Shown here: positions 6,126 through 50,239 of the stretch, piece by piece | How positions within the stretch are numbered: the first letter of the stretch is position 1 | Layout: the number at the start of each line of letters is the position of its first letter | Assembly (NCBI GenBank): GCA_020881835.1 | Contig: CP052876.1 | Span: 62,001-126,000, forward strand | DNA length: 64,000 bases | Origin: Kineosporiaceae bacterium SCSIO 59966 | Lineage (GTDB): Bacteria; Actinomycetota; Actinomycetes; Actinomycetales; SCSIO-59966 | Direction of reading: 5' to 3' | Notes under the pieces: model-generated | What the model was told of the DNA's origin: nothing | Seen by the model: only the letters and a program-made list of their open reading frames with translations | Database searches by the model: none | Made by a program: the position numbers and the translations under genes

Positions 6126-6148
6126 GGTGGCGGGATTGCATGATCACG
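6126..6148 (+). repeat. 23-bp dispersed intergenic repeat, copy 1
   Basis: GGT followed by GGCGGGATTGCATGATCACG, then a G-rich tract with GGGGGG. It sits between the convergent glycosyltransferase and paaE genes. Confidence 0.85.
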
Positions 6149-15900: not shown

Positions 15901-15923
15901 GGTGGCGGGATTGCATGATCACG
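15901..15923 (+). repeat. 23-bp dispersed intergenic repeat, copy 2
   Basis: GGT plus GGCGGGATTGCATGATCACG, followed by CTTGGCGGGGGCGG. It lies between the minus-strand osmC gene and the minus-strand gene at 15954. Confidence 0.85.
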
Positions 15924-19963: not shown

Positions 19964-20941
19964 TCAGACGGTCAGCACGATCTTGCCGACGTGGCTGCTG
20001 GACTCAAGCAGCGGGTGGGCCTCCGCGGCGTCCGCCAGCGGCATCCGGGTGTGGACGACGGGGCGGACGTCCCCGGACTCCAGCAGCGGCCACACGTGCT
20101 CGCGCACCGCCGCGACGATGGTGGCCTTCTCCGCGGCCGGCCGGGCGCGCAGCGACGTGGCGATGACCGCGGCGCGCTTGGCGAGGAGGGTGCCCAGGTC
20201 GAGCTCGGCCCGGCGTCCGCCCTGCAGGCCGATGACGACGAGGCGGCCGTTGGTCGCCAGGACCTCGACGTTGCGTCCCAGGTAGGCCGCCCCCATGTTG
20301 TCCAGGACGACGTCCGCCCCGTGCCCGTCGGTGGCCTCCCTCACGCGCTCGACGAAGTCCTCCTGCCGGTAGTCGACGAGGACCTGAGCGCCCAGGTCCC
20401 GGCAGCGCTCGAGCTTCTCCGGGGTGCCCGCGGTGACGGCGACCCGGGCGCCCACGGCGCGACCCAGCTGGATCGCCATCGTGCCGATGCCCGATGACCC
20501 GCCGTGCACGAGCAGTGTCTCGCCCGGCTGCAGGCCCGCGGTCATGAACACGTTGGACCAGACCGTGCAGACGACCTCGGGCAAGGCCGCGGCGTCGACG
20601 AGGTCGACCCCCGCCGGCACCGGCAGCACCTGGCCGGCCGGGACGACGACCTGCTCGGCGTAGCCGCCGCCGGACAGCAGGGCGCACACCTCGTCGCCGA
20701 CGCTGAACCCGTCGACGCCCTCGCCGACCTCGGTGACGCGCCCGGAGCACTCCAGACCGGGGTACGGCGACGCGCCCGGCGGCGGGGGGTAGTGCCCCCG
20801 TCGCTGCATGACGTCGGCCCGGTTCACCGCGGTCGCGGCCACGGCGATGCGGACCTCACCGGGCCCGCACGCCGGGGCCTCGACCTCCTGCAGCTCCAGG
20901 ACGTCGGCGTCACCGGGCTCCCGGATCACCACTGCGCGCAC
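19964..20941 (-). CDS. NAD(P)H quinone oxidoreductase, PIG3/QOR type
   Basis: 325 residues, a zinc-free medium-chain dehydrogenase. It shows NRADVMQRRGHYPPPPGASPYPGLECSG, GGYAEQVVVPAGQVLPVP, and the NADPH loop HGGSSGIGTMAIQLGRAVGARV. The absence of the catalytic zinc cysteines fits the quinone oxidoreductase branch. It reduces quinones with NADPH in the cytosol. It converges on the preceding aminotransferase gene with only one base between stops, and its 5' side faces a run of intergenic repeats. Confidence 0.9.
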   Translation of the reverse strand: MRAVVIREPGDADVLELQEVEAPACGPGEVRIAVAATAVNRADVMQRRGHYPPPPGASPYPGLECSGRVTEVGEGVDGFSVGDEVCALLSGGGYAEQVVVPAGQVLPVPAGVDLVDAAALPEVVCTVWSNVFMTAGLQPGETLLVHGGSSGIGTMAIQLGRAVGARVAVTAGTPEKLERCRDLGAQVLVDYRQEDFVERVREATDGHGADVVLDNMGAAYLGRNVEVLATNGRLVVIGLQGGRRAELDLGTLLAKRAAVIATSLRARPAAEKATIVAAVREHVWPLLESGDVRPVVHTRMPLADAAEAHPLLESSSHVGKIVLTV

Positions 20942-20975
20942 ACCCCCGACCCTAGCCCCCGCCCCCCGACCCCCC

Positions 20976-20998
20976 CGTGATCATGCAATCCCGCCACC
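20976..20998 (-). repeat. 23-bp dispersed repeat, copy 3 (first of a 38-bp-spaced trio)
   Basis: Complement of GGT plus GGCGGGATTGCATGATCACG, with a G-rich tract on its 3' side on the minus strand. Confidence 0.9.
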
Positions 20999-21013
20999 CC
21001 CCGCACGCCCCCC

Positions 21014-21036
21014 CGTGATCATGCAATCCCGCCACC
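21014..21036 (-). repeat. 23-bp dispersed repeat, copy 4 (second of trio)
   Basis: Identical 23 bp starting exactly 38 bases after copy 3, separated by a 15-base C-rich spacer. Confidence 0.9.
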
Positions 21037-21051
21037 CCCCCGCGACCCACC

Positions 21052-21074
21052 CGTGATCATGCAATCCCGCCACC
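21052..21074 (-). repeat. 23-bp dispersed repeat, copy 5 (third of trio)
   Basis: Identical 23 bp starting exactly 38 bases after copy 4. All three lie in the divergent region upstream of the quinone reductase and mobA-like genes. Confidence 0.9.
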
Positions 21075-21118
21075 CTGGCGTGCACCTGCCGAGGCCGTGC
21101 GTGGGCGACACTGGTGGC

Positions 21119-21757
21119 ATGCCGAGACGGGTCACTTCGTGGGAGGGGTGCGCGGTCGTCGTCCTCGCGGGCGGCCGGTCACGCCGCATGGGGCACGACA
21201 AGCTCGCGGACACTCTCGCCCCCGCCGCCGGCACCACCGGCCCGTTCACCGTGCTCGACGCCGTCCTCGCCGGCGTCCCGGACGACGTGGAGGTCGTCGT
21301 CGTCGGACCGTCCCGGTCCACCGCCCGCCCGGTCCGCACGACCCGTGAAGATCCTCCGGGCAGTGGTCCGGCCGCCGGGGTGGGCGCCGGGGTGCGTGCC
21401 CTCACCGGAACCCCTGCACACGTCGTCGTGCTCGCCGGTGACGCCCCGTTCGGACCGGCTGCCGTCCCCGCGCTTCTCGCAGCCCTGCGCCGTGACCCGC
21501 ATGCGGACGTGGCGGTCGCAGCCCCGCCGGACGGCCCGCCGCAGCCGCTGCTCGCCGTCTACCGGCGCGAGGCGCTGGCCCGGACGACGACCGGCCAGCT
21601 CCTCCACCGACCTGCTCGGGCGCTGATGGACCACCTCGCGGTCGTCGTCGTCCCGGTCGCCCAGGAGGCGACCCTGGACGTCGACACCCCGGCGGACCTC
21701 GAGGCGGCCCGGCGAGCGGCGCGCGCTCGGCTGAGAGGGGAGAGCGTGCGCGCCTGA
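21119..21757 (+). CDS. Nucleotidyltransferase, MobA-like molybdenum cofactor guanylyltransferase
   Basis: 212 residues. The N-terminal signature VVVLAGGRSRRMGHDK is the nucleotide-binding loop of MobA-type enzymes. Later come AHVVVLAGDAPFG and a C-terminal TLDVDTPADLEAA, the usual metal-binding DxD-P block. It would transfer GMP to molybdopterin, or act on a related sugar nucleotide. No other molybdopterin genes are in the window, which leaves the substrate open. ATG 21119 is chosen; any upstream extension would run into the repeat. Confidence 0.8.
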   Translation: MPRRVTSWEGCAVVVLAGGRSRRMGHDKLADTLAPAAGTTGPFTVLDAVLAGVPDDVEVVVVGPSRSTARPVRTTREDPPGSGPAAGVGAGVRALTGTPAHVVVLAGDAPFGPAAVPALLAALRRDPHADVAVAAPPDGPPQPLLAVYRREALARTTTGQLLHRPARALMDHLAVVVVPVAQEATLDVDTPADLEAARRAARARLRGESVRA

Positions 21758-21784
21758 GGTCCGGCGGGTGGGCGGAACTGTGGC

Positions 21785-21847
21785 CACAGAATGCTGCGCT
21801 CGTCCCGGCCTGGCCGGCGTGTTGCGCCACCAACCCAGCATTCCGCG
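21785..21847 (+). repeat. 63-bp inverted-end element, copy A
   Basis: Begins CACAGAATGCTG and ends CAGCATTCCGCG, so the right end is slightly decayed. Most of its length matches, in opposite orientation and with identical length, the element at 30220-30282. Confidence 0.85.
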
Positions 21848-21867
21848 AGCTGGTCGGTGGTCAGTGG

Positions 21868-21890
21868 GGTGGCGGGATTGCATGATCACG
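21868..21890 (+). repeat. 23-bp dispersed repeat, copy 6
   Basis: GGT plus GGCGGGATTGCATGATCACG, followed by a G-rich tract. It lies 20 bases after the 63-bp element. Confidence 0.9.
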
Positions 21891-21919
21891 GCGGGGCAGG
21901 GGTGGGCGGGGGTGTGCAG

Positions 21920-21942
21920 GGTGGCGGGATTGCATGATCACG
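21920..21942 (+). repeat. 23-bp dispersed repeat, copy 7
   Basis: Same orientation as copy 6, 52 bases further on. It is followed by five-, five-, four- and four-base G runs up to 21967. Confidence 0.9.
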
Positions 21943-22008
21943 GCGGGGGTGGGGGTGGGGTGAGGGGCAAGGGCGACACGCCCAGCTGGACTGCTCCGAT
22001 CGGGTGAA

Positions 22009-22022
22009 CCGCACCGGTGCGG
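22009..22022. promoter_or_regulatory. Perfect palindrome upstream of cvnA
   Basis: CCGCACCGGTGCGG, 14 bp, about 95 bases before the cvnA start. It could be a regulator site or a small hairpin in the leader. Confidence 0.4.
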
Positions 22023-22117
22023 CCGGTCGTCACCGTCAATAGAGCCCGGAGCCGGCCCGAAGCAGAGAGGAACCGCGGCACTGCGTCGCGGGCGGTTTCT
22101 CGAGCGGAAGGTCGCCC

Positions 22118-25100
22118 ATGCTGCGCAACACCGGCATCAGGTCGAAGATCCTGGCGGTCCTTGCACTGCCTGTGCTCGTCCTGCTGCTCGCAGCCACCGT
22201 CATCTCCGTCGGTGCCCTCACCGACGCGCGCCGGGCCGTGCAGGTCGAGTCCCTCGCGGGCCAGGCACCGGGGCTGACCACGCTCGTCCGTGGCCTGCAG
22301 GCCGAGCGGGCGCTCAGCATGCAGGTGATGGCCGGTGACACGAGCGCCGAGCCCGCGCTGCAGGAGGTCCGCGCCCAGGTCAGCGAGGGCATCGAGATGG
22401 TCCGCGCCGGCGTGGGCACGGTCGAGCTCGACCTGCTCGACGAGGCCGCCGCCAGCGGCGTCGCCGCGTCCGCCGCCGCCCATGACGACGTCGACGTCCT
22501 GCGCCGGCAGATCGACGGCTCCGCACTGTCCCCGACGCTCGCCTACGACCGCTACACCGACGCGATCGCGGCGGACGTCGCGCTCCCCGGCCGGATCGGC
22601 GACGCCGTCGACGACCGGGCGCTCGCCGACATGCTCACCACGTACACCGCGACCGAGCAGCTGGCCGAGCTCGTCACCGTGGAGCGCGACCTGGTCGCCC
22701 CCGCCGTCGCCGCGGGGGTGATGTCACCGGAGCTGCAGTCCCGGGTCGCTGACCTGATCGCCCGCCAGGACGTCGTCCGTGACCAGGCGACCGAGCTCGC
22801 CGAGAGCGTCGGCGTCCGGGTCCCGACCACCGGGTACGCCCTGCAGATGGCCCGGCAGAAGACCGTCGAGGACGCCGACGGCGTGCTGGAGAACATCGAC
22901 CCGGCCACGTGGCAGCGGGCCGCCGAGACCGAGGTCGCCTCGCTCGGCGCGGTCGAGGCCGAGCTCGCTGAGCTCGCCGCCGCGCGCAGCGCGACCCTCG
23001 CCGACGACGCACGGACCTGGGCGATCCAGGTGGGGGCCGGCACGGCGCTGCTCGTCGTCGTCCCGGTGCTGCTGGCGCTGCTGCTCTCCCGCAGCATCAC
23101 CGGTCCGCTGCGGCGGCTCACCGACGCCGCCGGCGAGATCCGGCGTGAGCTGCCGACGATGGTCGAGCGGATGCAGACCCCGGGCGAGGGCCCGGGTCTG
23201 ACGCTGCCGGAGATCCCGGTGACCTCCCGGGACGAGGTGGGCCGGCTCGCCGCCGCGTTCAACGACGTCAACAGCACGACCGTGCAGGTCGCCCAGGAGC
23301 AGGCCGCGCTCCGTGGGTCGATCGCGGCGATGTTCGTCAACGTCGCCCGCCGCGACCAGGTCCTGCTCTCCCGCCAGCTCGCGTTCATCGACCAGCTCGA
23401 GCGCACCGAGGACGACCCGCGCACGCTGGAGAACCTGTTCCGGCTCGACCACCTCGCCACCCGGATGCGTCGCAACGCCGAGTCGCTGCTCGTGCTCGCG
23501 GGTATCGACACCGGCCGTCGCCTGCGCCGTCCGATGCCGCTGTCGGACGTCGTCCGCACCGCGACGTCCGAGATCGAGCACTACGAGCGGGTCGACCTCG
23601 TGCTGCAGGCCGACCCGCCGATGGTCGGGCACGTCGCCCTCACGGCCGCCCACCTGCTCGCTGAGCTGCTGGAGAACGCGACGAACTTCTCCGACCCCGG
23701 CACCCGGGTCGTGGTGAGCACGGCGGCCGGCCCGCGCGGCGTCGTCGTCAGCATCGCCGACGAGGGCCTGGGGATGTCCGCGGAGGAGATCGCCGAGGCG
23801 AACGCCCGGATCGCCGAGCCACCGGTCGCCGAGGTCGTCGGCGCCCAGCGCCTCGGGTTCTTCGTCGTCGGACGCCTCGCCCGCCGCCTCGACGCGACCG
23901 TCTCGCTGGAGCCTGGGACCGAGCGGGGCACCGTCGTGCGCGTCGACCTGCCCACGGCGCTGTTCGTGCCCGGGTCGGTCGCCGAGGTCCCGGAGCCGGA
24001 CGGCGACGAGGCGCCACCGGCTCACGACCTGACCCCGGCTGGACTGCCTGCCCGGGTCGAGCCGGCGCCGCTGGGGTCCCCCGCTCCGGACGCCGAGCCG
24101 GCCCCGGACAGGCCTCGCACCGACGCAGGCCTGCCCCGTCGCGGCAGCGGCCTGCCCCTGCGGCAGCCGTCGATCGAGCCGTCCTCCCTGGCAGTGACGG
24201 CACCGGACGACGTGACGGCACCTCACGACGTGACGGCACCGGACGACGTACCCGAGGCCGTGCCGGATCCCTCGCCGGTCTCCCGTGGCGGGCTGTTCAG
24301 CTCCTTCCGTCCGCGTCGCCCCGGTGAGGCGTCCCAGACCGGCGCGGACGAGGTGCCGACGAACGGCCACACCCGCGCGCCGGCCCACCGGCAGCACGCC
24401 GCGGAGCCGGACGCCCAGCAGCCCGTCGAGCAGGAGCCGGTCGAGCAGCAGCCGGTCGCGCCCCAGCCCGAGGCCGCGCAGACGCCCGAACCCCAGCCCG
24501 AGCCCCAGCCCCAGCCCCAGCCCGAGCCCGAGCCCGCGCCCCAGCCCGAGCCTGAGCCCCAGCCTCATCTGGCGGCACCCGCCCTGGACATCCTGCCCAA
24601 GCGGGCCACGCTGCGCCGCCGGCAGTCGCGGGGCTTCCTCGGACGTCGCGGGGTCGCCCAGCCGTCCACCGTCGTCCCGGTCACTCGCCGGGAGATGCGG
24701 AACCTCGAGCAGGCGCTGAGCACCGCGGACTCCCCAGGCGAGCCGGTCGGCGCGTACGTCCCTCGGCACCAGCCTCCAGCGCGCCCGCGGGACGACGCCG
24801 CGGCGCGCGACCGGGAGGCGCCGACGCCGGACGGCGCCCCGGCCGCCCAGCGACCTGAGCCCGTCCCTGCGCCGAGCAGCCTGTTCGGCGTCCCGCCGCA
24901 GGCGGCGGATCGCGCCGAGTCCCCGGCTCCGGTGCCCGAGCCGGTCGGCTCCGGCGTTCGCGCGGCCGGTCGGGTGGCCCTGCCCGTGCCCGGCGACGGC
25001 CCGATCCCGTTGCCGACGCGGCCGGCACCCGGCCCCGCGACGTCCACCGACGGTGGGTCCGACGTCCTGCGGGAGCGGTCGGCGCTGGCCTCCGAGGCGC

Positions 25101-25429
25101 TGACCGAGCTGAGCCGACTGTCCGCCTACACCCCCGCCGCCGTCGACAGCAAGCCGCCGGCGACCCTCACCCGGCGCACCCCGGCCGCCAGTCCGGCCGC
25201 CCAGGTGGCGGTGCCGCGACCGGCCGCCGCACGCCGTCCGGGCCGTGACGCCGCCGACGTCCGCTCGATGCTCGCCGGCTTCCAGGCCGGGGTGAACCGC
25301 GGGCGCACCGACCCGGCGGGTCCACCTTCGCCGAACGGCGACCAGCCGGCTACCGACCAGCCGGCCACCGACCCGTCCCCGACCGCCCCGACGACCGACA
25401 CCGCCAGCACGACCGGAGGACAAGCGTGA
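22118..25429 (+). CDS. cvnA: Nitrate/nitrite-sensing-domain sensor kinase, CvnA
   Basis: 1103 residues. A transmembrane helix (about 8-30), an extracytoplasmic all-helical NIT-type sensor (about 50-295), a second membrane helix (about 302-325) with a HAMP region, then a kinase core with LDHLATRMRRNAESLL, the N box LLAELLENATNFS (about 515), DEGLGMS and GFFVVGRLARRL. The last 450 residues are disordered and rich in proline and glutamate, with a triple VTAPDD repeat and a QPEPQPQPQ tract. CvnA starts the conservon cascade with a roadblock protein and a small GTPase instead of a response regulator. GGAAGG precedes ATG 22118. Its stop overlaps cvnB by four bases. Confidence 0.93.
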   Translation: MLRNTGIRSKILAVLALPVLVLLLAATVISVGALTDARRAVQVESLAGQAPGLTTLVRGLQAERALSMQVMAGDTSAEPALQEVRAQVSEGIEMVRAGVGTVELDLLDEAAASGVAASAAAHDDVDVLRRQIDGSALSPTLAYDRYTDAIAADVALPGRIGDAVDDRALADMLTTYTATEQLAELVTVERDLVAPAVAAGVMSPELQSRVADLIARQDVVRDQATELAESVGVRVPTTGYALQMARQKTVEDADGVLENIDPATWQRAAETEVASLGAVEAELAELAAARSATLADDARTWAIQVGAGTALLVVVPVLLALLLSRSITGPLRRLTDAAGEIRRELPTMVERMQTPGEGPGLTLPEIPVTSRDEVGRLAAAFNDVNSTTVQVAQEQAALRGSIAAMFVNVARRDQVLLSRQLAFIDQLERTEDDPRTLENLFRLDHLATRMRRNAESLLVLAGIDTGRRLRRPMPLSDVVRTATSEIEHYERVDLVLQADPPMVGHVALTAAHLLAELLENATNFSDPGTRVVVSTAAGPRGVVVSIADEGLGMSAEEIAEANARIAEPPVAEVVGAQRLGFFVVGRLARRLDATVSLEPGTERGTVVRVDLPTALFVPGSVAEVPEPDGDEAPPAHDLTPAGLPARVEPAPLGSPAPDAEPAPDRPRTDAGLPRRGSGLPLRQPSIEPSSLAVTAPDDVTAPHDVTAPDDVPEAVPDPSPVSRGGLFSSFRPRRPGEASQTGADEVPTNGHTRAPAHRQHAAEPDAQQPVEQEPVEQQPVAPQPEAAQTPEPQPEPQPQPQPEPEPAPQPEPEPQPHLAAPALDILPKRATLRRRQSRGFLGRRGVAQPSTVVPVTRREMRNLEQALSTADSPGEPVGAYVPRHQPPARPRDDAAARDREAPTPDGAPAAQRPEPVPAPSSLFGVPPQAADRAESPAPVPEPVGSGVRAAGRVALPVPGDGPIPLPTRPAPGPATSTDGGSDVLRERSALASEALTELSRLSAYTPAAVDSKPPATLTRRTPAASPAAQVAVPRPAAARRPGRDAADVRSMLAGFQAGVNRGRTDPAGPPSPNGDQPATDQPATDPSPTAPTTDTASTTGGQA
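24194..24247 (+). repeat. 18-bp tandem triplication inside cvnA
   Basis: Three 18-bp units (24194-24211, 24212-24229, 24230-24247) beginning GTGACGGCACC, encoding VTAPDD, VTAPHD, VTAPDD in the disordered tail. Confidence 0.85.
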
Positions 25430-25878
25430 CCACGATGAGCACCGAGGCAGCCAACTTCAGCTGGCTTCTCGACAACTTCGTCAAGAGCGTGCCCGGCGTC
25501 CGCCACACCCTCGTGGTGTCGGCCGACGGCCTGCTCATGGCCATGTCCGACGACCTCGACCGGACCCGCGGCGACCAGCTGTCCGCGATCGTGTCGGGGA
25601 TGTCGAGCCTCACCCGCGGTGCGGCCCGTCAGCTCGACGCCGGCGAGGTGCGCCAGGCGATCGTCGAGATGGACGAGTACTTCATGTTCCTCATGGCGAT
25701 CTCCGACGGTTCCGTGCTCGCCACGATGGCCGACTCCAGCTGCGACGTCGGGCTCATCGGCTACGAGATGGCCATGCTCGTCAGCCGCACCGAGGCGACC
25801 CTGACCCCACAGCTGGTCTCGGAGATGCGCTCCCGCCTGCCGGTCCACGGCAGCACCCGCGCGCCGGTGATGGGGTGA
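25426..25878 (+). CDS. cvnB: Roadblock/LC7 domain protein, CvnB
   Basis: 150 residues. FSWLLDNFVKSVPGVRHTLVVSADGLLMAMSDDLDR and LSAIVSGMSSLTRGAARQLDAGEVRQAIVEMDEYFMF are the roadblock/LC7 fold, a regulator of Ras-like GTPases. In conservons it links the CvnA kinase to the CvnD GTPase. The GTG start overlaps the cvnA stop as GTGA, and cvnC follows after seven bases. Confidence 0.95.
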   Translation: MTTMSTEAANFSWLLDNFVKSVPGVRHTLVVSADGLLMAMSDDLDRTRGDQLSAIVSGMSSLTRGAARQLDAGEVRQAIVEMDEYFMFLMAISDGSVLATMADSSCDVGLIGYEMAMLVSRTEATLTPQLVSEMRSRLPVHGSTRAPVMG

Positions 25879-25885
25879 GGACGGC

Positions 25886-26290
25886 GTGAGACACGTCGAC
25901 GACCCGCCCGGGCACCTGGGGCCCGGCGAGGACCCTTCCGTCGAGGAGGAGACCTACGCGGTGCGGCCCTACGCCGTCACCGGCGGCCGGACGGCGTCCG
26001 CCTCCACCCAGATCCCGGTCGAGGCGCTCGTCCAGGCGCTCGCCGAGCCCGACGTCACGATGACGCCGGAGAAGCGGCGCATCGTCGAGCTCACGCAGCA
26101 CCAGTACCTGTCCGTCGCCGAGCTCTCGGCGCACCTGCGATTGCCGGTACCGGTGGTCCGGATCGTCCTGGGCGACCTCACGTCGTCCGGGTCGGTGCGG
26201 GTCCACGGGACGTCCCGGTCCGACGGCTACACCCCCGCAGCCACCCTCAGCGTCCTGGAGAGTGTTCTCAATGGCATTTCCTCGCTCTGA
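25886..26290 (+). CDS. cvnC: DUF742 protein, CvnC
   Basis: 134 residues. The DUF742 core is VRPYAVTGGRTAS, IVELTQHQYLSVAELSAHLRLPVPVVRIVLGDL and SVLESVLNGISSL, which reads as a winged helix. In conservons it is the third component, sitting between the roadblock protein and the GTPase. GTG 25886 is used. Its end overlaps the start of cvnD by 20 bases, which favours translational coupling. Confidence 0.93.
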   Translation: MRHVDDPPGHLGPGEDPSVEEETYAVRPYAVTGGRTASASTQIPVEALVQALAEPDVTMTPEKRRIVELTQHQYLSVAELSAHLRLPVPVVRIVLGDLTSSGSVRVHGTSRSDGYTPAATLSVLESVLNGISSL

Positions 26291-26909
26291 CGTCGCCTCC
26301 GCCGTGCCGGCGCAGGCCGCTCAGCCGGGTGGCGCCGGGACCCCGGACGGCCCGGACGCCGCGCCCACCGTGGTCAAGATCGTGGTCGCCGGCGGGTTCG
26401 CCGTCGGCAAGACGACGTTCATCGGCTCCATCTCCGACATCGAGCCGCTGACCACCGAGGCGCCGATGACCGAGCACTCCCTCGGCATCGACGACGCCGG
26501 CGGGGTCACCGACCGCAAGACGACGACGACCGTCGCGATGGACTTCGGCCGGATCGCGCTGCCGGGCAACCTGTGGCTCTACCTGTTCGGCACGCCCGGC
26601 CAGGACCGGTTCCTGTTCATGTGGGACGACCTGGTGCGCGGCGCCATCGGGGCGGTCGTGCTCGTCGACACCGAGCGGCTCGAGCAGTGCTTCCCCGCGG
26701 TGGACTACTTCGAGGCCCGCGCGATCCCGTTCGTCGTCGCGGTGAACTGCTTCGACGGCATCGCCCGGCACTCCCTGGACGACGTCCGCGAGGCGCTCGC
26801 CGTCCCCGCCCACGTGCCGATGGTCTACACCGACGCTCGCTCCCGTGGGGCGACCAAGCAGGTCCTCGTCACCCTCGTCCAGCTGGCGATGCAGCGCCTC
26901 ACGGCCTGA
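26271..26909 (+). CDS. cvnD: Small GTPase/ATP-GTP-binding protein, CvnD
   Basis: 212 residues. G1 loop VVAGGFAVGKTTFIGSIS, switch region TTTVAMDFGRIAL, G3-like LFGTPGQDRF and G4-like VNCFDG. These are the features of the Ras-like GTPase of conservons, which acts as the switch of the complex. ATG 26271 is preferred because GGAGAG lies eight bases upstream; GTG 26262 would add three residues. A possible hairpin follows at 26929. Confidence 0.93.
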   Translation: MAFPRSDVASAVPAQAAQPGGAGTPDGPDAAPTVVKIVVAGGFAVGKTTFIGSISDIEPLTTEAPMTEHSLGIDDAGGVTDRKTTTTVAMDFGRIALPGNLWLYLFGTPGQDRFLFMWDDLVRGAIGAVVLVDTERLEQCFPAVDYFEARAIPFVVAVNCFDGIARHSLDDVREALAVPAHVPMVYTDARSRGATKQVLVTLVQLAMQRLTA

Positions 26910-30151: not shown

Positions 30152-30219
30152 ATTCTCCCACCGCGGGGAAGGCCCGGAGTCGTCCCGCTGCGTTGACCCC
30201 CCGGCCGTGCCGTCCGGCT

Positions 30220-30282
30220 CACAGAATGCTGGGTTGGTGGCGCGACACGCCGGACGAGCCGTGCTGAGCGCAGCATTCTGTG
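30220..30282 (-). repeat. 63-bp inverted-end element, copy B
   Basis: Perfect 12-bp inverted ends CACAGAATGCTG and CAGCATTCTGTG. Its complement aligns without gaps to the copy at 21785-21847. It lies in the divergent region between the PAC2 gene and mazE. Confidence 0.9.
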
Positions 30283-48271: not shown

Positions 48272-48301
48272 GGGCCCGGCTCTCACCTGAGAGCCGGGCC
48301 C
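48272..48301 (+). terminator. Hairpin terminator after tRNA-Ser(GCU)
   Basis: Perfect 13-base arms GGGCCCGGCTCTC and complement around ACCT, 12 bases after the tRNA. Confidence 0.85.
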
Positions 48302-48319
48302 GCCCCGTGCGTCCCCCTT

Positions 48320-48342
48320 CGTGATCATGCAATCCCGCCACC
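48320..48342 (-). repeat. 23-bp dispersed repeat, copy 8 (left arm of inverted pair)
   Basis: Complement orientation. With copy 9 it makes a perfect 23-bp inverted repeat with a 17-base loop. Confidence 0.9.
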
Positions 48343-48359
48343 CCGGCCCAGCTCGTGCG

Positions 48360-48382
48360 GGTGGCGGGATTGCATGATCACG
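48360..48382 (+). repeat. 23-bp dispersed repeat, copy 9 (right arm of inverted pair)
   Basis: Plus orientation, followed by G runs to 48409, four bases before the pckG stop codon complement. Confidence 0.9.
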
Positions 48383-48412
48383 GGTGGGTCGTGCGGGGGG
48401 TGGGGTGGGACG

Positions 48413-50239
48413 TCAGTCCATGCCGAGACGGTGCTTGAGGCCGTCGAGCTCGGTCCACAGCATCGCCGGCAGGTGCTCGCCGAACTTCTCGAACCACTCC
48501 TGGATCTGCGGGACCTCCTGGCGCCACTCCTCGGGGTCGACGGTCAGGCAGATCCGCAGCTCCTCCTCGGTCAGGTCGAGCCCGTCGGTGTCGAGGGACT
48601 CCGGCGTCGGCACGTGGCCGATCGGCGTCTCGGTGGCCGCCGCACGCCCCTCGATGCGCTCGATGATCCACTTGAGCACACGCGAGTTCTCGCCGAAGCC
48701 GGGCCAGACGAAGTCGCCGTCCTCGTTCCGCCGGAACCAGTTGACGTAGAAGATCCTGGGGAGCTTCGCGACGTCCGCGTCCTTGCCCATCGAGATCCAG
48801 TGCTGGAAGTAGTCGCCCCCGTTGTAGCCGATGAAGGGGAGCATCGCCATCGGGTCACGACGGACGACGCCCACCTGGCCGGTCGCGGCGGCGGTGGTCT
48901 CCGAGGACAGGGTCGCCCCCATGAAGACGCCGTGCACCCAGTCCCGGGCCTCGGTGACGAGCGGGACCGTCGTCGCGCGTCGTCCGCCGAAGAGGATCGC
49001 CGAGATCGGGACGCCGCGGGGGTCGTCGTACTCGGGGGCGAGGATCGGGCACTGCTTGATCGGGGTGCAGTACCGGCTGTTCGGGTGCGAGCTCGGCTCG
49101 CCGGAGTCCGGCGTCCAGTCCTCGCCCTTCCAGGACCGGGCGTGGGCGGGCGGGTTCTCCATGCCCTCCCACCAGATGTCGCCGTCGTCGGTCAGCGCGA
49201 CGTTGGTGAAGATGCTGTTGCCGCGGTTGATGGTCTCGATCGCGTACGGGTTCGTCTTCTGGTTGGTGCCGGGGGCGACGCCGAAGAACCCGAACTCGGG
49301 GTTGACCGCGTAGAGCCGGCCGTCCTCGCCGAAGCGCATCCAGGCGATGTCGTCGCCCAGCGTCTCCACCTTCCACCCCGGGATGGTGGGTTTGAGCATC
49401 GCGAGGTTCGTCTTGCCGCACGCGGACGGGAAGGCGGCGGCGACGTAGTACGTCTGCTGCTCGGGGGAAGTGAGCTTGAGGATGAGCATGTGCTCGGCCA
49501 TCCAGCCCTCGTCGCGGGCCATCACCGACGCGATGCGTAGGGCGTAGCATTTCTTGCCGAGCAGGGCGTTGCCGCCGTACCCGGAGCCGTAGCTCCAGAT
49601 CGCCCGCTCCTCGGGGAACTGGGTGATGTACTTCGTGTCGTTGCACGGCCACGGTACGTCCTGCTGGCCGGGCTCGAGGGGGTAGCCGACGGAGTGCAGG
49701 GCCGGCACGAAGTCGGCGTCGAGCTCCTCCATCCGACGCAGCACGGTCTCGCCCATTCGAGCCATGATCCGCATCGACGTGACGACGTAGGCGGAGTCGG
49801 TGATCTCGACACCGAACATCGGCTCGGGTGCGTCGAGGTGGCCCATGACGAACGGGATGACGTACATCGTGCGGCCCCGCATGCACCCCCGGTAGAGCGC
49901 GGTCATGCGCTCCTTCATCTCGTCCGGGTCCATCCAGTTGTTCGTCGGACCGGCGTCCTTCTCCTCGCGGGAGCAGATGAACGTGCGGTCCTCGACCCGG
50001 GCGACGTCGGTCGGGTCGGACTGGGCGAGGAACGAGTTGGGCTTCTTCGTCAGGCGGGTGAACGTTCCGGTCTCGACGAGGAGGTCGGTGAGCCGCGTCC
50101 ACTCCTCCTCAGTGCCGTCGACCCAGTGGATGGCGTCGGGGGTCGTGAGGGCGGCGACCTCGGCGACCCACTCGGCGAGCCGGGGGTGGGTGGTCGGCCG
50201 GCCGGTGACCATGATGTCGGGAGAGGTGTCGGTGCTCAT
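48413..50239 (-). CDS. pckG: Phosphoenolpyruvate carboxykinase (GTP)
   Basis: 608 residues, full length for the GTP type. The P-loop region is [16 protein letters not shown] with the reactive cysteine, followed by [56 protein letters not shown] and [13 protein letters not shown] are also typical. It converts oxaloacetate to PEP, the first committed step of gluconeogenesis. ATG 50239 is used. Four 7-8 base boxes in the 100-190 bases upstream may regulate it. Confidence 0.97.

Follow-up and report, generated by a model that had tools for sequence, protein, structure and literature searches.

A tandem repeat array with C-rich spacers between divergent genes is probably a duplicated arm from a palindromic miniature element that is dispersed in its genome and has relatives in other actinobacteria

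The window analyzed here, a 64-kb stretch of a single-contig actinobacterial genome, carries three plus-strand copies of a 23-bp sequence, CGTGATCATGCAATCCCGCCACC, hereafter called A, at 20976–20998, 21014–21036 and 21052–21074. A sequence-only reading had reported three copies starting at 20976, 21014 and 21052 with an exact period of 38 bp and 15-base, C-rich spacers, and exact matching confirmed both the copies and the spacers. Tandem Repeats Finder delimited the array at 20955–21075 (plus strand, period 38, 3.2 copies, score 191), with C-rich spacers and outer flank. The divergent setting described in that reading was likewise found: a gene for a zinc-type quinone reductase/alcohol dehydrogenase on the minus strand, starting at about 20932–20941, and a gene for a MobA-like NTP transferase on the plus strand (21119–21757) flank the array, both assigned by Pfam.

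Next, we searched for further copies in the window. A 16-base core of A occurred 9 times with at most 2 mismatches, compared with 0 in 100 dinucleotide shuffles, so a chance origin of the core is excluded. The six copies outside the array comprise two single repeats on the minus strand, at 6126–6148 (with convergent genes on either side) and 15901–15923; two minus-strand repeats of period 52, at 21868–21890 and 21920–21942, beyond the mobA-like gene and facing the first array; and an inward pair starting at 48320 on the plus and 48360 on the minus strand. The minus-strand singles and the period-52 pair were located by core match. A second repeat, termed B and reading ACAGAATGCTG…CAGCATTCYG, lies 3′ of the mobA-like gene on the plus strand (21786–21848), as defined by an alignment of 38 copies and by 114 genome copies. 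The order at the locus is +AAA, mobA-like gene, +B, −AA, which may represent either a composite split by an ordinary gene or two halves flanking it. No Rfam match was found in 20900–22100, and no intrinsic terminator, that is, a G+C-rich stem followed by a T run, in 20900–22150. In one frame the repeat reads GTG ATC ATG CAA TCC CGC CAC, so that open reading frames starting with MIMQSRH appear at window positions 21053 and 21889; MIMQSRH is a false protein start, and database proteins beginning with it would be mis-called starts. Beyond the locus, at 22118–26909, a sensor kinase gene with NIT, HAMP and HATPase regions (by Pfam) is followed by three small genes, in an order that we take to be that of a conservon.

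The whole genome (3,095,448 bases) contained 415 copies of the A 23-mer at up to 2 mismatches, 201 forward and 214 reverse, and the reversed control gave 0. Its exact 18-base core was present in 168 copies on each strand. Degenerate copies were few: a looser search allowing 3 mismatches over 18 bases gave 435 copies, compared with the 415 obtained when 2 were allowed over 23. We then read 864 kb of the genome closely, consisting of the window and 40 further stretches (41 in all). These held 73 arrays of one to five direct copies, from which unbiased densities cannot be taken because the first 20 stretches were mostly picked for holding copies. Of these arrays, 69 were clear of called genes and 4 overlapped them. 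An information profile showed a sharply bounded unit, with about 2 bits at each of 23–24 positions and mostly less than 0.5 bits in the flanks, except for two C's at −7/−6 (1.2 bits). Genome-wide, the A strand was 55–60% C outside and between the units. Thus, the ordered array of a conserved 23-bp unit with C-rich, unconserved spacers perceived in the single locus is real.

Periods in these arrays (n = 72) spanned 23 to 92 and showed no helical phasing; 37 was the commonest (18 times), and 38 occurred in 7. As to whether the period would be met elsewhere, arrays do recur at other loci, but each has its own local period. Spacers were 81% identical inside one array and 29% identical across arrays, which points to local tandem duplication as the origin of the 38-bp period. 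The arrays would then have grown by such duplication while the 23-bp unit stayed conserved. The likeness of the C-rich, 15-base spacers within an array also bears out the earlier judgment that this is not a CRISPR.

Arrays neighboring each other within 1 kb were inward-facing in 23 cases and outward-facing in none. The usual composite was +A…B…−A, with B often between two facing arrays. B is a repeat of fixed length, 63 nt, reading ACAGAATGCTG…GGCGTGTCGCGCC…CAGCATTCTG, and 38 copies aligned without an indel. The genome contains about 114 copies, and counts in 393 other genomes did not exceed background. The B arms paired in 95% of cells, and covariation in the B hairpin did not exceed that of shuffles. 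The second B of the window (30219–30281, minus strand) formed a stable hairpin as DNA (z −3.5) with no A in its gap. It lies 68 bp from a gene whose end is on the 30151 side, and B therefore also occurs without A.

Folding was then analyzed together with gene context. The inward A pair at 48320–48382 lies directly after the PEPCK gene (3′ end at 48413, by Pfam) and forms a long perfect hairpin; folded as DNA, 48300–48400 reached −46.5 kcal/mol (z −9.1). The +AAA array at 20976 folded weakly alone (z −1.5), and single A arms, at 0 to −0.9 kcal/mol, were no more stable than their shuffles, indicating that one arm has no internal hairpin. The 67 intergenic arrays were distributed over convergent (24), codirectional (36) and divergent (7) gaps, compared with background gaps of at least 60 bp numbering 17, 130 and 49, respectively. 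In the host genome, and likewise in six further genome sets, arrays were over-represented in convergent gaps (Fisher P 2e-4 and 8e-5) and under-represented in divergent ones; counted by gap, the convergent enrichment in the host genome had a P of 2e-4. The setting of the array at 20976 is the least typical, because so few arrays occupy divergent gaps compared with convergent ones. A gene's 5′ end was faced by 26 of the 67 arrays. Host-genome gaps of up to 260 bp carrying A were structured in 14% of cases, which is not above other gaps, so that the relatives give better support for a hairpin role than the host genome does.

Among 296 sampled genomes of the class, the exact 18-mer was found only in the host genome, apart from one relative (G305), which has several sub-families. 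One exact copy was also present in an Actinomycetales metagenome contig, in a row with the variants CGTGATCATGCAGTTCCGCA and CGTGATCTTGCACTTCCGCA. Two exact matches in viral contigs turned out to be one phage stretch with a single partial core and were discarded as chance. The end common to a wider family is GTGATC[AT]TG, and inward pairs of the form GTGATC[AT]TG…CA[AT]GATCAC were present in 46 of the 394 genomes searched in the class, against 0 for the control. They were concentrated in a small number of genomes and patchy within genera, sister genomes having none (81 vs 0, 43 vs 0 and 34 vs 0). Among the listed pairs, the length was constant for each genome group (39, 51, 54 or 59 bp), and the inner sequence differed by group. 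By its ends and layout, the 23-mer of the host genome (G000) appears to belong to this wider family. Of the 24 arm pairs in the 59-bp family, 14 had changed on both sides, and compensatory changes filled 55 cells compared with a shuffle mean of 21, with 0 of 500 shuffles as high; for the 51-bp family, most measures gave no covariation beyond that of shuffles. Some 17 head-to-tail units of 22 bp, reading GTGATCATGCAGCCGCTCGGCC, were seen at G028:C9:47885-48267, in an array much longer than those observed in the host genome. When G093 was compared with G046, no element was found at eight flanks and two synteny breakpoints, these genomes being too diverged for clean empty sites. The two G093 arrays traced on both flanks sit at synteny breakpoints, of which one looks like an inversion (L077 and L180, compared with L200/L202 and L197/L205 of G046), as expected if arrays recombine.

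Turnover of the elements was followed in two sister species of one genus, G148 and G248, whose inner sequences are GTGATCATGCACGTTCGCCC and GTGATCATGCACGCCAGC[CG]C, respectively. In comparable syntenic gaps, five G148 elements were absent from G248 and four were shared; in the reverse direction, six G248 elements were absent from G148 and four were shared. The shared gaps were the same four both ways, and each carried the two different inner sequences. Elements have thus been gained or lost by single species, and their inner sequence has changed in place. One element was a clean insertion between genes that overlap as TGATG (stop/start) in the empty site of the other species. Target-site duplications were inconsistent in length, with possibly 2 bp at one clean site and possibly 8 bp at another. 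At seven syntenic gaps without the element, the sister species had another strong hairpin (z −2.6 to −5.9). Other palindrome families, namely inward arrays of TTCCGCCAC and hairpins of CACCATTCGCGCTAC…, were seen filling gaps where the sister has a GTGATC element (G148/G248: L146 at about 10100, L165 at about 12000, L151 and L292). Arrays of G248 were also seen followed by a conserved module of their own, TGGGGAGGATCACTGCA…GGGGCACC…GGGGTGCCACCGCGCC, which is a counterpart of B with a different sequence (L066-L070 and L287). In both species, elements commonly began 20 bp or less from a stop codon. In the relatives, strongly structured gaps without an element made up 61–68% of convergent, 15–23% of codirectional and 7–10% of divergent gaps, and 62–78% of the codirectional gaps with an element were strongly structured.

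From these results, we consider that the array at 20976 is probably one arm, duplicated in tandem, of a palindromic miniature element that is scattered through the genome. In its ancestral form the unit would have been [C-rich lead]-GTGATC[AT]TG-(genome-specific inner sequence)-loop-(its complement)-CA[AT]GATCAC-[G-rich tail], and the inner sequence of the host genome is CAATCCCGCCACC. Arms would have been duplicated in place to give one to five direct copies, many units holding the 63-bp B between facing arrays. Units would have spread through intergenic gaps over evolutionary time, as presence and absence in the sister species show for the relatives and as presumably happened in the host genome, and they would have been retained mostly at gene ends, where at many sites the unit may serve as a hairpin at the 3′ end of mRNA. 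Such a role cannot apply to the array at 20976, because it lies between divergent genes. This array is one-sided, its nearest facing arm lies beyond the mobA-like gene, and it folds poorly alone; for these reasons, we regard it as most probably half of an element that was left behind, presumably without a function. The family as a whole is best read as mobile-like palindromic miniature elements, REPIN-like without the REPIN transposase family, which are concentrated at gene 3′ ends and plausibly act there as hairpins. We infer that mobility caused their distribution.

An account in which nothing moves is possible, if on the unlikely side. It holds that the elements are 3′-end hairpins, working as bidirectional terminators or mRNA stabilizers, that are selected in place and homogenized by gene conversion. 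The closeness of elements to stop codons in the relatives, the other strong hairpins at the seven element-free syntenic gaps and the frequency of strong hairpins in convergent gaps generally would all fit. However, it does not explain the presence of elements in one species only, including the clean insertion at an overlapping gene pair, or copy numbers that differ greatly inside genera. Moreover, the region 20900–22150 has no T-run terminator, and more than a third of the intergenic arrays point toward a gene's 5′ end.

We are more doubtful that the 23-mer is the site of a sequence-specific DNA-binding protein, such as a nucleoid organizer, regulator or roadblock, with arrays as cooperative platforms and an inner sequence that co-evolves with the protein. 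The sharp unit of 23–24 bp amid unconserved flanks, the near absence of degenerate copies, the strictly inward orientation and the concerted inner-sequence change at the gaps shared by the sister species are compatible with this account. The cooperative binding sites favored by the sequence-only reading keep this much, as the conserved unit would suit a binding site, but the special period ascribed to them is not supported, given the range from 23 to 92 produced by local duplication and the lack of helical phasing. Compensatory changes in the 59-bp family indicate that the palindrome, and not one arm, is conserved, and most arrays avoid the divergent gaps in which promoters lie.

It appears very improbable that this is a true REPIN system with a RAYT (Y1) transposase as its driver. 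The family does share the REPIN layout (PMC3116915), being made of extragenic, high-copy, hairpin-forming inverted doublets of about 20–25 bp in lineage-specific families. However, REPINs depend on the Y1 (RAYT) transposase (PMC3116915), and Y1_Tnp (PF01797) had no match in the host genome or in G248, G148, G093, G305, G028, G034 and G102, which speaks against a Y1 transposase as the driver in these element-bearing genomes; furthermore, the single arm has no internal hairpin, whereas REPs are palindromic. Other movers were also considered. DUF222/HNH (13E12) genes, present in 44 of 59 relatives, had no visible link to the repeat, and no autonomous element was seen in the 864 kb of sampled stretches. 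Genes between facing arrays in these stretches were ordinary, one being MobA-like and another, judged by eye, shikimate-kinase-like. The idea of an element carrying mobA as cargo was dropped because the second enclosed gene resembles shikimate kinase, so that both are ordinary neighbors.

That the repeats are iterons, as first guessed, or a local operator of the quinone reductase and mobA promoters is hardly tenable: direct repeats of constant 38-bp period in a divergent gap would suggest it, but the 415 copies are dispersed over unrelated loci (which refutes a locus-specific version), only 4 of 73 arrays touch genes, the period varies by array, most arrays lie outside promoter gaps, and no replication gene was seen beside the array at 20976.

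Returning to the mobile-like miniature elements preferred above, we propose tentatively, and with somewhat less than even confidence, that actinobacteria may harbor an undescribed superfamily whose GTGATC[AT]TG ends are constant, while its inner sequence is genome-wide and changes fast. The superfamily would be spread by an enzyme other than that of REPINs and would turn over in place at gene ends, where palindrome families would swap while a hairpin stays. If this is true, a patchy family of short palindromes with recognizable ends and no known mover runs through a large bacterial class. It would be a new example in which to study the spread of short repeats and the joint sequence change of hundreds of scattered copies. 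Sister pairs with shared positions but different inner sequences make the question of joint change testable.

In the open-licence papers searched, the core sequence occurred in none, shorter cores gave only unrelated primer-like matches, and no description of an actinobacterial REP or REPIN surfaced. GTAG/CGTC-tagged palindromic repeats are treated in a survey of prokaryotic short palindromic repeats, whose text contains no occurrence of GATC, GTGATC, actinobacteri or Streptomyces (PMC3733652). Like REPINs and REPs (PMC3116915), the present elements are short and extragenic, exceed 100 copies, form hairpins as inverted doublets, vary in inner sequence by lineage and show signs of spread. The inverted hairpin doublets that characterize REPINs are found in the family but not in the one-sided array at 20976. 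Unlike REPINs, the elements occur without a RAYT/Y1 transposase, their single arm is not palindromic as REPs are, they share the terminal motif GTGATC[AT]TG, and their arms are tandemly duplicated in the host genome. Similar to MITEs, they are small and non-coding, with terminal inverted repeats, a patchy spread and one clean insertion, but no parent transposon was identified in the sampled stretches and target-site duplication was inconsistent. BOX elements and the mosaic elements of Neisseria (dRS3/RS) are modular, in that copies of a short unit, varying in number, surround another conserved module. A and B are not known to be related in sequence to either. The A and B repeats of the host genome nevertheless resemble this modular BOX/dRS3 plan, with B as the second module, in a different phylum.
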